Shown: positions 32,674 to 50,817 of the stretch, piece after piece | Layout: each line of letters opens with the position of its first letter | Position numbering within the stretch: the stretch's first letter is position 1 | The notes under the pieces: generated by a model | What the model was told of the DNA's origin: nothing | Database searches by the model: none | Seen by the model: the letters and a program-made list of their open reading frames with translations, nothing else | From: Peribacillus simplex | GTDB taxonomy: Bacteria; Bacillota; Bacilli; Bacillales; DSM-1321 | Length of the DNA: 64,000 nt | Reading direction: 5' to 3' | Assembly: GCF_001578185.1 (NCBI RefSeq) | Contig: NZ_CP011008.1 | Coordinates: 2,570,001 to 2,634,000 of the forward strand | Translations under genes and position numbers: made by a program

Positions 32674-33205
32674 ATGACTCCAAAACATGCAAGAAGCCTA
32701 AACTGTGAGCAATGGAGCTTTTTTCAAAGTAGGTAAGATGGATGGTAATATATTATACTAGAACAATATAGGTTGGAAATTTCCTGTTCTTTTTTTCAAG
32801 CTAAAAGTTGTACATATATTCCTCTCGTACGTTGCTCTGAATAACGCAAAAAAACCGGCCTCAGACGAGACCGGTTTTAAAGATAGAAGCCGTTATTGCC
32901 GTATTCAGTAAGAAAGTTTTAAACCACCACTCCTTAAAGTGGGTGTTTGCAGAAACAATCCTGTTGTCCAAGTCAGTGACGAGGCATAACATTCCTGTTT
33001 CAATATAAAACTCCCTATTACAGCTTAAAGGTTAAAACTTAAATATCATTACGAACAGTACAGCTTGTATTGTTATATTACCTGAATTCCTTATATCTTA
33101 CAATGGTAATATTTGCTATAGCGATAACCAATCAAATTGGCTTTATCTTGGAATGGACGCCCTATTATCCCTTTATACTTAATAAGAGCATTCGTTAGGA
33201 TCAAA
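32674..33205. other. Non-coding stretch with two hairpins
   Basis: Contains the terminator at 32851-32878 and a hairpin ACCACTCCTTAAAGTGGGTG near 32922-32944 followed by structured-looking sequence to 33016 that is reminiscent of an IS200/IS605 right end. No transposase or TnpB reading frame remains. Confidence 0.35.
32851..32878 (+). terminator. Terminator downstream of ykuK
   Basis: AAAACCGG and CCGGTTTT around a 12-base loop; 180 bases beyond ykuK. Confidence 0.55.
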
Positions 33206-47272: not shown

Positions 47273-48211
47273 CTATTGATTAAATCTTCCGCGCTGACGT
47301 AGTAATTCACGGTTCAGGTTCGGATCTTTTTCAAATGCAGCGCGGCCGTGAAGCCAAAAAATATTGTTGACGACAACTAAATCCCCAACAGGCAGTTCCA
47401 GTTCAACTACACTTTCATCGTTTTCTAATGAATTTGAAAAATCCCGTAAGTATTTTGCTTGTTCAATTGATTCAGGATAAACAAATTGATCGATAAAACA
47501 TACACCAGGTTTGTTATTATGATTGAAGAAAGTCAATCTTTCAATCTCCTGATCAATGTTCTTGCTTTTTGGAGCCTTATACGTGAATTTTTGACTTGAT
47601 AATGGATGATTAACGTACATATCAAGCTCTTTCCAATCGTCTAGGTGCAATAAGCGTGATTCGCCACCGCGGGCATTTTGTTCGATCATCTTCATCATTA
47701 GTAACCAGTCCGTTGGTTCATCTACAAAAGTTCCGTCTGTATGAAGTGTAAATAAACGATAGGCTTGACGTAAATATGAATCGCTGCTATCCGTGTCTTG
47801 AACACTAAAACGTGCATAATATTTTCCTGACATCGCATCATGGTTAGGTGTTCCAAGCAAGTATGAAATGGCCGTTGCAAAAATGACATATTCATCTGTT
47901 TTTTCAGTGACACCTTCCAAGCCGAGGGTGAACCCGCCGGAATCCCGATCATGAACGATGTTCCTAAGCACTTCACCAAAGTCTTCTCCTACTTGATCCA
48001 ATAGATATGATGCAACGATGAGTCTTGCGTATGGTGTATATTCCAGATGTTGAACAGACTGAGAATCCTTCAATGCCGTTTCTAAAAATGCGGCAATTGC
48101 TTCTTTAGAAATTTCAATATGATACAATCGGCTGGTTTGAGGGTGGACTTTCACCTCATATTTTTCTGTTTTCCTTTCAAACTTAACTCTCTTTTTTTCT
48201 GCAATGCTCAT
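47273..48211 (-). CDS. glaH: Glutarate 2-hydroxylase CsiD/GlaH
   Basis: A 312-residue member of the CsiD family of non-heme Fe(II)/2-oxoglutarate dioxygenases. The iron-binding triad is visible as His157 and Asp159 in TLHTDGTFVDE and a distal His288 in WLHGRAAF, with an Arg in RELLRQR positioned for 2-oxoglutarate. It converts glutarate to L-2-hydroxyglutarate with succinate and CO2. The neighbouring lhgO gene supplies the next step. It starts at an ATG after AGGAGG and is preceded by a promoter and a structured leader (48222-48397). Confidence 0.92.
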   Translation of the reverse strand: MSIAEKKRVKFERKTEKYEVKVHPQTSRLYHIEISKEAIAAFLETALKDSQSVQHLEYTPYARLIVASYLLDQVGEDFGEVLRNIVHDRDSGGFTLGLEGVTEKTDEYVIFATAISYLLGTPNHDAMSGKYYARFSVQDTDSSDSYLRQAYRLFTLHTDGTFVDEPTDWLLMMKMIEQNARGGESRLLHLDDWKELDMYVNHPLSSQKFTYKAPKSKNIDQEIERLTFFNHNNKPGVCFIDQFVYPESIEQAKYLRDFSNSLENDESVVELELPVGDLVVVNNIFWLHGRAAFEKDPNLNRELLRQRGRFNQ

Positions 48212-48221
48212 GAATAATTCC

Positions 48222-48397
48222 TCCTGTTATTTGTTATATGGATGAAAAAATTAACAGGAAATATAAAAAAGCCAGTCGCACATGATCCCCAAATAAAATA
48301 GGAGTCCAACTGTACAACTGGCTTATATTCACTTCACTGCTCTATGCAAATAGAGTCACAGCGAATATGCAGTTATGTATGATTTATTTTTCCTGTT
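48222..48397 (-). ncRNA. Candidate cis-regulatory RNA of csiD/glaH
   Basis: Minus strand, in order: AACAGGAAA (48397-48389), hairpin P2 with ATATTC/GAATAT (48368-48325), immediately abutting hairpin P3 with a 13-bp stem AAGCCAGTTGTAC/GTGCGACTGGCTT (48324-48269) and a T-run, then TTTCCTGTTA (48261-48252), then TAACAGGAGG containing the ribosome binding site. TTTCCTGTT can pair with AACAGGAAA (9 bp), closing P2 and P3 into a domain, or with the ribosome binding site (8 bp plus two G-U). The two are mutually exclusive. Not a riboswitch class I recognise. Confidence 0.55.
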
Positions 48398-48476: not shown

Positions 48477-48505
48477 ATTTAAACGTTTTTCAGTAAAATT
48501 GTCAA
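48477..48505 (-). promoter_or_regulatory. Sigma-A promoter of csiD/glaH
   Basis: TTGACA (48500-48505) and TTAAAT (48477-48482) with a 17-base spacer, lying between the DUF3870 gene and csiD; it gives a leader of about 260 bases. Confidence 0.65.
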
Positions 48506-48539: not shown

Positions 48540-48881
48540 CTAACTTGGTAGTTTCGTTTTTTCTCCTGCTTTAATTTGCTGAAAATGGATATCCAGGTCC
48601 TTTAAGGCAGCAATCAATGCATTAGCCGCTTTCCCCCTATAATACGTTTGAATCGATTCTATCGCGTCATCAACACCATCATTTAGACTGGTCCCTTTTA
48701 ACAAACGCCCAATGAATTCCCGGCCATGCTCTGTTGCCAATGTACAAGAGGCTTCCAGGACAACCCCATATTTAGCATCGATTTCTGCAGTGATGGTCAA
48801 TGTTTCAAAGACACTTTTCGCTGCCATTCCTTGAGGTAAACGTGCATGACCTGCTATGAAAATTGTTTTACCATTGAACAT
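48540..48881 (-). CDS. DUF3870 protein in the glutarate operon
   Basis: A 113-residue soluble protein of the DUF3870 family (MFNGKTIFIAGHARLPQGMAA; ITAEIDAKYGVVLEASCTLATEHGREF). Its function is unknown. It sits between lhgO and csiD, which suggests a role in glutarate or lysine-derived C5 acid metabolism. The conserved ASCTLATEHG contains a cysteine and a histidine that could be catalytic. The ATG follows GAGGAAG. Confidence 0.8.
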   Translation of the reverse strand: MFNGKTIFIAGHARLPQGMAAKSVFETLTITAEIDAKYGVVLEASCTLATEHGREFIGRLLKGTSLNDGVDDAIESIQTYYRGKAANALIAALKDLDIHFQQIKAGEKTKLPS

Positions 48882-48910: not shown

Positions 48911-50128
48911 TTATTTTGTCAATACAGCTTCCAATAAGTGTGATTGTTCCGGAATCCGGTTAACAACCTCTTTTCCAATTTCAATTGAGGCTGTTGCAGC
49001 AGGTGACGGTGCATTACATACATGAATGGTCCGTTTCCCCATTATAATATGAAAATCATCCACCATATTACCATCATCCTGTAACGCCTGGGCCCGCACT
49101 CCAGAAGGTGCAGGGATTAAATCATCTTCTTGAATTTCCGGAATTAATTCCTGCAGGCTTTTCGTAAATTGCTTTTTACTAAAAGAGCGGACATACTCAT
49201 CCATCCCTTCCTTCATGAATTTACTAGCCAGCTTCCAAAAACCTTTATAGCTTAAAACTTCAGTTAAATCTTTCGCATTGAAGTCGGTTTTTTTATAACC
49301 TTCCCGCTTGAAACTTAGTACAGCATTTGGTCCAGCATCTACTTCCCCGCTAATCATCCGTGTGAAATGAACCCCTAAAAATGGGAATTTCGGGTTAGGT
49401 ACCGGATAAATTAAATGATTGACAAGGAAGCGCTTTTCGGGCTTCAGTTTAAAATACTCACCGCGAAACGGGACAATTTTCATATCAGTTTTATACCCCG
49501 CAGCTGCTGCGATACGGTCACTGTGCAACCCTGCGCAATTAATGACTATCCTTGCCTTTATGGTACCATTGTTCGTTTCGATGATGACATCATCAAAATT
49601 CTCGTCAATCTTCTCCACCTTTGTATTCAGCATGATTTCACCGCCGTTGCCCCGGATGATATCCGCCATCTTTTCACTTACCTGACGATAATTGACGATG
49701 CCTGCTTGCGGGACGCGTATCGCACCAAGTCCATTGACATGTGGTTCGATTTCCTTTAACTCGTCCACACCGATTCGTTGTATAGCTAGCTCATTTTGCA
49801 AACCGCGTGAATATAAATCATCCAAAAGGGGCAACTCTTCTGGCTTTGTTGCAACAATGACCTTTCCGCAAATATCATGTTCAATTCCATGCATCCGGCA
49901 GAATTCCGTCATTGATTTGCTTCCTTGACGGGCAAACCGTGCCTTGAAACTGCCTGGTTTATAATAAATTCCTGAATGGATGACGCCGCTGTTATGCCCC
50001 GTTTGATGATCTGCAACAACGGCCTCTTTTTCAATGACTACCACTTTAGCATTAGGAAAACGCTGATAAAGTGCCATTCCCGTTGATAAACCTACTATTC
50101 CCCCACCAACAATTGCAAAATCATACAC
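48911..50128 (-). CDS. lhgO: L-2-hydroxyglutarate oxidase LhgO
   Basis: A flavoprotein of about 405 residues of the DAO superfamily with FAD-binding YDFAIVGGGIVGLSTGMAL at the N-terminus, HNSGVIHSGIYY (a hallmark of L-2-hydroxyglutarate oxidases) and the C-terminal VCNAPSPAATASIEIG. It oxidises L-2-hydroxyglutarate to 2-oxoglutarate, recycling the product of CsiD. The start is most likely the GTG at 50128, eight bases after AAAGGAG; the frame begins three codons earlier at another GTG. It is the first catalytic gene behind the GntR regulator. Confidence 0.9.
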   Translation of the reverse strand: MYDFAIVGGGIVGLSTGMALYQRFPNAKVVVIEKEAVVADHQTGHNSGVIHSGIYYKPGSFKARFARQGSKSMTEFCRMHGIEHDICGKVIVATKPEELPLLDDLYSRGLQNELAIQRIGVDELKEIEPHVNGLGAIRVPQAGIVNYRQVSEKMADIIRGNGGEIMLNTKVEKIDENFDDVIIETNNGTIKARIVINCAGLHSDRIAAAAGYKTDMKIVPFRGEYFKLKPEKRFLVNHLIYPVPNPKFPFLGVHFTRMISGEVDAGPNAVLSFKREGYKKTDFNAKDLTEVLSYKGFWKLASKFMKEGMDEYVRSFSKKQFTKSLQELIPEIQEDDLIPAPSGVRAQALQDDGNMVDDFHIIMGKRTIHVCNAPSPAATASIEIGKEVVNRIPEQSHLLEAVLTK

Positions 50129-50142
50129 AATTAACACTCCTT

Positions 50143-50817
50143 TTATTGATGATTTTTAGTATTCAGCAACTCCATATACGTAATTAAATTATTCTTAGTT
50201 CGTAAAATGTGAAACTCTACTGCTGCCCTTAGTTCTGCAGGATCCCCTCTTAATGCCGCTTCATATATCATCCGGTGTTCCCTTTGCGTTTCTGGGTAAT
50301 AATCAATCAGCAAATTCGGCGCAATGGGTGAGATACCGAGTGTCTCTACCATTTTTTGAACCCTTGGCCACGGACACCCTTTGCGTAGGGTTTCATGGAA
50401 AGCCGCATTTAAAAGGATATAATGCTCATTGGTTTCATCAGATAACTGAATTCCTTCCATTTCAATCAAAATACCTTTTAATTTTTCCTTATCCTCCTTT
50501 GTTAAATAAGGAAGCGATTTTTCCACGGCAAGGCCTTCAAGCAGGGACCTGGTATGATAAATTTCTTCAATATCATCCCGGGTAATAGGTGTGACGACTG
50601 CTCCTTTATGAGGAACCATTTCCACCAAGCCTTCCATTTGAAGCTGTGTAAGGGCTTCACGAATAGGCATTCTGCTAACTTCCAGGCGATCGGCCCACTC
50701 CTCTTGGATGAGTCGCTCCCCCTTTTTCAACGTTCCATTCAAAATCGCATTCCTAAGGCTTTTGGTTACATTTTTAACGATGGTTGATTTATCTCGATCG
50801 GAATTAACATTATCCAA
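50143..50817 (-). CDS. GntR-family regulator (FCD) of the glutarate operon
   Basis: A 224-residue regulator with a winged helix (LRNAILNGTLKKGERLIQEEWADRLEVSRMPIREALTQLQMEGLVEMVPHKG) and an FCD domain (about 85-215) with metal-liganding histidines (HETLRKG, HRMIYEA, FHILRTK). By position it is the counterpart of CsiR, the glutarate-responsive repressor. A TTG at 50817 is the start, after GGTGG. Its likely operators lie just upstream as TTGGATACAA motifs. Confidence 0.85.
   Translation of the reverse strand: MDNVNSDRDKSTIVKNVTKSLRNAILNGTLKKGERLIQEEWADRLEVSRMPIREALTQLQMEGLVEMVPHKGAVVTPITRDDIEEIYHTRSLLEGLAVEKSLPYLTKEDKEKLKGILIEMEGIQLSDETNEHYILLNAAFHETLRKGCPWPRVQKMVETLGISPIAPNLLIDYYPETQREHRMIYEAALRGDPAELRAAVEFHILRTKNNLITYMELLNTKNHQ

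Follow-up and report, generated by a model that had tools for sequence, protein, structure and literature searches.

The window analysed here, a stretch of 64,000 nucleotides from a Peribacillus chromosome, carries on its minus strand four genes and a leader RNA in the order GntR, lhgO, DUF3870, leader, csiD. The operon is headed by a regulator that family models place in the GntR/FCD family (50143-50817), followed by lhgO for L-2-hydroxyglutarate oxidase (48911-50137, NCBIfam NF008726) and by a gene for a DUF3870 protein (48540-48881, Pfam PF12986), a recurrent neighbour of the RNA. Downstream lies csiD/glaH (47273-48211, start codon at 48211), whose product is recognized as glutarate hydroxylase by NCBIfam NF002814 (427.8 bits, over the cut-off) and by the Pfam CsiD family. 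The leader occupies the interval between DUF3870 and csiD. A repeated element was considered for this interval and rejected, as the own genome gives one match to the leader DNA.

Read from its sequence, the csiD leader of Peribacillus is a structured RNA of about 200 nucleotides with its own promoter, and it lies within the 5′ leader, downstream of the promoter and ahead of the start codon, promoter-like sites being called by consensus. From 5′ to 3′ it consists of a hairpin P0, an AACUG segment, a hairpin P2/P2b and an intrinsic terminator P3, all on the minus strand. The good promoter that an earlier note on this DNA had placed at 48477-48505 is present as a sigma-A type TTGACA-17-TTAAAT. 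P0 (48417-48450), the 5′ part of the putative aptamer, was given by RNAalifold and covaries among divergent copies (alignment A6, below); with the promoter side, it extends the conserved element 5′ of the region outlined in that note. AACUG (48370-48374) is the 5′ strand of a helix, here called AT for aptamer/antiterminator, whose 3′ strand, CAGUU (48316-48320, placed by the A6 alignment), lies within the 5′ arm of P3. Between them stands P2 (48327-48366) with its inner hairpin P2b (48340-48355).

P3 (48269-48324) abuts P2 exactly at the junction 48325/48324, and its long stem with G-U pairs runs into six T (48265-48270), a terminator U-tract whose first two residues can pair with the base of P3; both features were correctly described before. 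The flanking segments AACAGGAAA (48389-48397) and TTTCCTGTT (48253-48261) are indeed complementary and form the 5′ and 3′ strands of a further helix, P1, assessed below by shuffling. Likewise, the csiD ribosome binding site lies in the segment described for it, TAACAGGAGG (48220-48229). Compared with dinucleotide shuffles, the fold of the whole leader has a z of -5.06 and that of P3 alone a z of -6.21, with 0/200 shuffles as stable in either case.

A CsiD protein search of genome contigs located 26 csiD loci, and the 400 nucleotides upstream were read in all 26. The leader, P0 included, is common to 22 of them (L023-L044), from Peribacillus, Priestia abyssalis, Neobacillus and other Bacillus-like organisms. 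A covariance model built from csiD leaders (R1) gave no match at E<=1 at the remaining loci (L045-L048), which come from Trinickia, two Paenibacillus species and a Pelagibacteraceae contig and encode CsiD proteins 43-53% identical. One Peribacillus genome (G006) has two csiD leaders (L013 and L022), 93% and 85% identical to that of the window. An 18-row MAFFT alignment, in which the window is joined by 17 of the 22 loci that have the leader, near-duplicates being left out, gave P0, P2, P2b and P3 by RNAalifold. In these close leaders 97.6% of cells pair, a figure for a structure partly derived from the same alignment and with P1 included manually; both-side changes occur at 11 pairs versus 3.0 in shuffles, a number reached in 0/500.

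Genome searches place the RNA well beyond the csiD leaders. In the order, R1 found it in 26/397 genomes and 17/135 genera, at 29 places with E<=1e-3, all full length. A second model (R2), built from 40 copies with the P1 pairs left out, found it in the class in 26/398 genomes and 16/146 genera, at 37 places. A phylum-wide search of 398 genomes from 267 genera detected it in three genomes, all of the window's own order, and it was not seen outside the class in that sample. The order, class and phylum searches used stricter filters that lose weak matches, so these presences are lower bounds. Together they yield 62 unique places at E<=1e-3, 29 from the order search and 33 further ones from the class search, with none added by the phylum search. 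The RNA is thus widespread but patchy in the class, which is Bacilli going by the named relatives.

Within the own genome, R2 placed a second copy upstream of a caprolactamase-like gene pair, at C1:4456085-4456269 with an E-value of 7.1e-9. A weak match directly before a gene for a succinate-glutarate CoA-transferase (SUGCT) (L089, C1:1317754-1317920, E 0.035) was accepted for its context, although another match that lacks pathway context (L088, E 0.0056) outscores it. L088, L090 and L091 were left uncounted, there being no pathway gene among the ORFs listed downstream of them, and so was a match (L050, E 0.93) whose position over the end of a DUF3870 gene suggests the terminator of that gene.

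Comparison with described RNAs gave no assignment. The library of 4227 Rfam families, which includes the described riboswitch classes, left the leader unmatched when the window was searched at the gathering threshold; the sole match lay elsewhere and was 6S RNA (RF00013, 80.1 bits, 32883-33069, minus strand). Nothing better than E 0.65 was returned for the leader alone at a relaxed threshold, and none of 39 further loci matched any of the 4227 families at the gathering threshold. The suggestion of a new cis-regulatory RNA before csiD is borne out, in that the RNA is conserved, its helices covary and no Rfam family matches it.

The strongest evidence for the structure comes from divergent copies. 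Alignments were narrowed in stages: 43 of 68 rows were inspected in A3, and 68 of 78 rows were used in A5, the other 10 being left out as antisense or chance matches. The final alignment, A6, holds 48 divergent copies from 47 of 67 sources, with near-duplicates reduced and the weak own-genome SUGCT copy L089 absent; its printed consensus drops columns filled in fewer than 24 of the 48 rows. P0, AT, P2 and P2b taken together are 93.5% paired, a percentage that leans toward P0, P2, P2b and P3 because A6 was fitted to these helices; AT was absent from that model. Changes on both sides occur at 25/28 pairs versus 20.6 in shuffles and in 276 cells versus 74.2, each reached in 0/500 shuffles, and the structure scores 0.625 against 0.219 when shuffled and at most 0.101 when slid along the alignment. 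Both-side changes affect 10/10 pairs of P0 and 13/13 of P2 and P2b, so that these three helices together covary at 23/23 pairs. P3 has 95.9% of its cells paired, with both-side changes at 10/14 pairs (6.6 in shuffles, reached by 3/500) and in 103 cells (26.3 in shuffles, reached by 0/500). Covariation, the check proposed at the outset for related csiD leaders, is therefore found for P2 and P3 and also for the newly recognized P0.

The AT helix links this structure to the terminator. The trinucleotide CUG stands directly 5′ of P2 in 47/48 rows of A6, usually as AACUG, the remaining row (L108) being gapped there, and AACUG is complementary to CAG or CAGUU in the 5′ arm of P3. The helix has 97.9% of its cells paired across the 48 copies. 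Both-side changes occur at 2/5 pairs and in 3/48 sequences, two of them from one genus: A-U gives way to a compensatory G-C in L109 and in the congeneric L067 and L070, and G-U occurs in other copies. Shuffled alignments reached the cell count in 5/500 cases, the pair count in 23/500 and the percentage paired in 17/500, a moderate result, given how little the helix varies. Its outer pair is mismatched in five copies. In L107 and L108 the helix is broken in the alignment, and L089, outside A6, likewise needs a shift of register; shifted pairings can be drawn by eye in all three (UUGAC:GUCAG, UGGC:GCCA and UUGAC:GUCGG, respectively).

AT and P3 share A6 columns 205-209 and are mutually exclusive. 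Thermodynamic folding of the nascent RNA, at the stage when P3 still lacks its 3′ arm, gives AT a mean probability of 0.64, above 0.5 in 34/48 copies, the gapped L108 being counted as 0. When the full RNA is folded, P3 displaces AT, whose probability exceeds 0.5 in 0/48. At least five T occur in the eight nucleotides after P3 in 48/48 copies, which upholds an earlier aside that termination is possible at the P3 T-run. Promoter-like sites scoring at least 9 of 12 lie within 110 nucleotides upstream in 42/48 copies, and the mean best score in that interval is 10.3 versus 8.4 in base-shuffled sequence. The arrangement of AT and P3, with a T-rich tail and a promoter-like site, is that of a terminator-type ON switch, and the terminator P3 looks like the main output of the leader. 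Since AACUG takes up part of the 5′ arm of P3, folding of the aptamer would keep the terminator from forming and thereby turn transcription on.

The earlier note had proposed control of translation instead: P1 and a helix between TTTCCTGTTA and the ribosome binding site would exclude each other. Either interaction is present in the window and only marginally beyond chance, P1 with a z of -2.0 (p 0.043) and pairing between the region of the P1 3′ strand and the ribosome binding site with a z of -2.4. Defined across the family as a helix between the sequence preceding AACUG and the U-tract with what lies beyond it, P1 exceeds shuffles at p<=0.05 in 17/48 copies, where about 2.4 are expected. These include 15/29 csiD copies and 2/19 others (L087 and L101), and by the same test P1 was found in none of the 10 SUGCT copies. 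Where it does occur it can be very strong, with z values of -6.6 (L058), -5.6 (L093), -5.5 (L055 and L061), -5.0 (L039) and -4.2 (L041). In these six copies an A-rich strand pairs with the terminator U-tract and beyond, although the sequences are quite different. P1 is a real but lineage-limited addition: as a helix enclosing P2 and P3 it stands for about half of the csiD leaders and fails for the SUGCT copies, and a part for it in the aptamer of all copies was rejected, 31/48 copies lacking it at p<=0.05.

Sequestration of the ribosome binding site, the core of that translational logic, did not hold up. Pairing of this site by the terminator-tail region has a mean z of -0.43 and falls below -1.64 in 5/47 loci, the site being taken as the first simple pattern of ribosome binding site plus start after P3, which may be the wrong one where starts are distant. 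The five are the window (-2.4), L036 (-3.8), L059 (-5.3), L062 (-1.8) and L068 (-1.7). The strong values in L036 and L059, together with the strong P1 helices just listed, speak for a translational switch. Against it stand the poor conservation of the ribosome-binding-site pairing, the 14/29 csiD copies and all 10 SUGCT copies in which P1 does not reach p<=0.05, the position of the 3′ strand of P1 after the terminator, and a start codon more than 100 nucleotides past the end of the match in L068, L075, L087, L095, L097 and L104. Such a switch is thus a very improbable account of the family; sequestration of the ribosome binding site is no family feature and may matter in single lineages. The competing pair is likely AACUG with the 5′ arm of P3 rather than P1 with the ribosome binding site.

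What the RNA controls can be judged from the genes that follow it. The first gene is csiD at 35 of the 62 places (30 confirmed by family scan, L051-L055 read from sequence), a context that is partly circular because R1 was built from csiD leaders. A SUGCT-type gene comes first at 10/62. Nine of these CoA-transferases were scanned and have succinate--glutarate CoA-transferase as their best model, at 449-490 bits against a cut-off of 750; the one in L070 was called from the start of its sequence. For the L076 enzyme, the closest solved structure by sequence is succinate--hydroxymethylglutarate CoA-transferase (SUGCT), at 388 bits. SUGCT operons go on with an acyl-CoA dehydrogenase and mostly DUF3870; the acyl-CoA dehydrogenase of the own genome is matched best by an acryloyl-CoA reductase model (377.9 bits) and second by glutaryl-CoA dehydrogenase (374.5), both below cut-off. 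Both of the alternative glutarate-consuming enzymes, CsiD and SUGCT, therefore have the RNA upstream.

Other contexts are less frequent. GabT, by model a 4-aminobutyrate transaminase, comes first at 3/62 places (L101, L105 and L119), and a dehydrogenase of the alpha-ketoglutaric semialdehyde type at 2/62, with 747.6 bits (just below) and 792.5 bits (above) against a cut-off of 770. A fused TRAP permease followed by SUGCT and DUF3870, the caprolactamase-like alpha/beta pair of the own genome (543.6 and 313 bits, cut-offs 1000) and a DUF3870 gene (L120) each account for 1/62. Altogether 53/62 places precede genes of glutarate metabolism or genes that can be linked to glutarate by inference. A small Cys-rich ORF is first at 7/62 (L069, L077, L116, L117, L118, L121 and L122, from several genera); the complete ones are about 23-50 amino acids long, those of the L118/L121/L122 type start with a CxxC motif, and to our knowledge they have no link to glutarate. 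The remaining 2/62, before serC (L112) and before a gene judged PadR-like by eye (L123), reach E<=1e-3 but do not have the core and were counted as probably false.

Two of these neighbourhoods suggest how glutarate might be supplied. In the own genome, the interval L124:7926-12270 (C1:4451925-4456269) holds an RNA copy and the caprolactamase-like alpha/beta pair, a family resemblance suggesting that lactam hydrolysis may feed the glutarate pathway in Peribacillus. OplAB is reported to act on delta-valerolactam (PMC11033972). In G077, four RNA copies fall within about 10 kb, before csiD, SUGCT and a dehydrogenase and, on the opposite strand, before a Rieske oxygenase with a BCCT transporter (L079:8376-11554). 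The families in this last cluster suggest, as a guess, that a betaine such as delta-valerobetaine may be converted to glutarate semialdehyde. The routes of the controlled genes would then start from a lactam or betaine and pass through 5-aminovalerate or glutarate semialdehyde to glutarate and from there into either drain, the lactamase and betaine steps being proposed from family resemblance.

A promoter-like site and a terminator could also be accounted for, with no need for sensing, if the element were an independent small RNA that stops at P3 or served the upstream operon as a constitutive terminator. Either would leave unexplained why the RNA immediately precedes genes that belong to different operons but to one pathway and why a helix competing with the terminator is conserved, and both are scarcely credible. 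The sequences contain a conserved structure that covaries, helices that exclude one another, promoter-like sites and a terminator, and the gene contexts recur. It is very likely, and well supported, that a conserved leader RNA unmatched in Rfam controls termination before glutarate-metabolism genes.

Antitermination might depend on a protein rather than on direct binding of a metabolite. An RNA-binding protein, perhaps DUF3870, would sense glutarate and bind P0/P2. DUF3870 is indeed a faithful companion, being present in 25/26 RNA-positive genomes of the class sample, where the exception (G677) is probably a false match; it adjoins csiD and SUGCT copies and follows directly behind the RNA in L120. 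Examples are found in the window (48540-48881), at L120:2344-2664 and at L125:8324-8689, and the own genome has three copies. However, DUF3870 occurs in 108/398 genomes of the class sample, and in 83 of these the RNA was not detected, so an enzyme or accessory protein suits it better. Moreover, Pfam names only DUF3870 in the protein and no RNA-binding domain. A protein-dependent antiterminator is accordingly improbable, and the leader RNA probably senses a small molecule directly.

Glutarate is the compound at which the routes of the controlled genes converge and which is common to most of them. It has precedents as a signal for the same genes. In E. coli, the csiD-lhgO-gabDTP operon is reported to be repressed by CsiR and released by glutarate (PMC6265302), and in P. 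putida both CsiR, acting on csiD and lhgO, and GcdR, acting on gcdH, are reported to respond to glutarate (PMC6667623). Direct binding of a ligand, its identity as glutarate and the direction of the switch are what we infer from the features of the RNA and its contexts.

The same RNA might sense another compound of the pathway, namely 5-aminovalerate, delta-valerolactam, L-2-hydroxyglutarate, 2-oxoglutarate or succinate. The aminotransferases behind the GabT copies (L101, L105 and L119) would use 5-aminovalerate, and the caprolactamase-like pair of the own genome (L087/L124) may make it; 5-aminovalerate fits these GabT and lactamase-like copies but not the majority, since 45/62 places stand before enzymes that have glutarate as a direct substrate (csiD 35, SUGCT 10). 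CsiD and GabT both use 2-oxoglutarate; 2-oxoglutarate and succinate are, on the other hand, central metabolites and would probably make poor specific signals. L-2-hydroxyglutarate is no intermediate of the SUGCT route. It has in its favour that lhgO adjoins SUGCT in G077 and G228, and that P. putida CsiR is reported to respond to this compound too (PMC6667623). Against this, no lhgO was present in the stretches around four SUGCT operons (L082, L083, L084 and L125). Glutarate, which also came first in the list of metabolites drawn up for the earlier note, fits the controlled genes better than L-2-hydroxyglutarate, which is disfavoured as the ligand. A ligand other than glutarate, whichever of these it might be, is unlikely but still worth keeping in mind.

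The reading preferred here, to which we give a probability of roughly 0.6, is that the leader is a transcription-terminating ON riboswitch with glutarate as its ligand. Transcription would start just upstream of P0, and P0, the AACUG:CAGUU helix, P2 and P2b would make up the aptamer. Glutarate binding would keep the 5′ arm of P3 engaged in the AACUG:CAGUU helix, the terminator would not form and csiD would be transcribed. When glutarate is absent, the arms of P3 would pair with each other and transcription would stop at the U-tract. The same RNA would govern several operons that lead to glutarate or consume it.

Riboswitches that turn genes on by controlling a terminator are familiar in Bacilli, examples being the adenine switch of pbuE and the glycine switch of gcvT. 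As in switches of this type, the 3′ strand of the helix closing the putative aptamer lies within the 5′ arm of the terminator, and the element has its own promoter and stands directly before pathway genes. The csiD leader differs from them in having different helices, no Rfam match and a putative ligand. It resembles the lysine riboswitch and other cis-regulatory families of Rfam in being a leader RNA in a context of amino-acid metabolism, but it matches none of the 4227 families. CsiR and GcdR of E. coli and Pseudomonas control csiD, lhgO, gab genes and gcdH in reported response to glutarate (PMC6265302, PMC6667623); these are DNA-binding proteins, whereas the control element in the present case is a leader RNA.

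The statement in the earlier note that no glutarate riboswitch was known agrees with the papers of the open PMC library, where none was found. We know of no natural riboswitch class for any simple C5 dicarboxylate. On balance, it is somewhat more likely than not that the leader RNA represents the first natural riboswitch class for glutarate: a transcriptional ON switch that in Bacilli would co-ordinate the supply of glutarate from lactam, 5-aminovalerate and possibly betaine precursors with its consumption by the CsiD/LhgO and SUGCT/acyl-CoA dehydrogenase routes, and so would fill the place of the CsiR and GcdR proteins of Proteobacteria.

The proposal is directly testable, since the leader RNA has a clear candidate ligand and occurs in several operon contexts. 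If it is true, a riboswitch class would be added for a plain dicarboxylate, and the RNA would offer a genetically encoded sensor for glutarate, a compound reported to accumulate in glutaric aciduria type I (PMC6667623). It would also point to genes of the same regulon that have no assigned function, namely those for DUF3870 and the small Cys-rich proteins. Glutarate catabolism would then be controlled by an RNA in Bacilli and by proteins in Proteobacteria.
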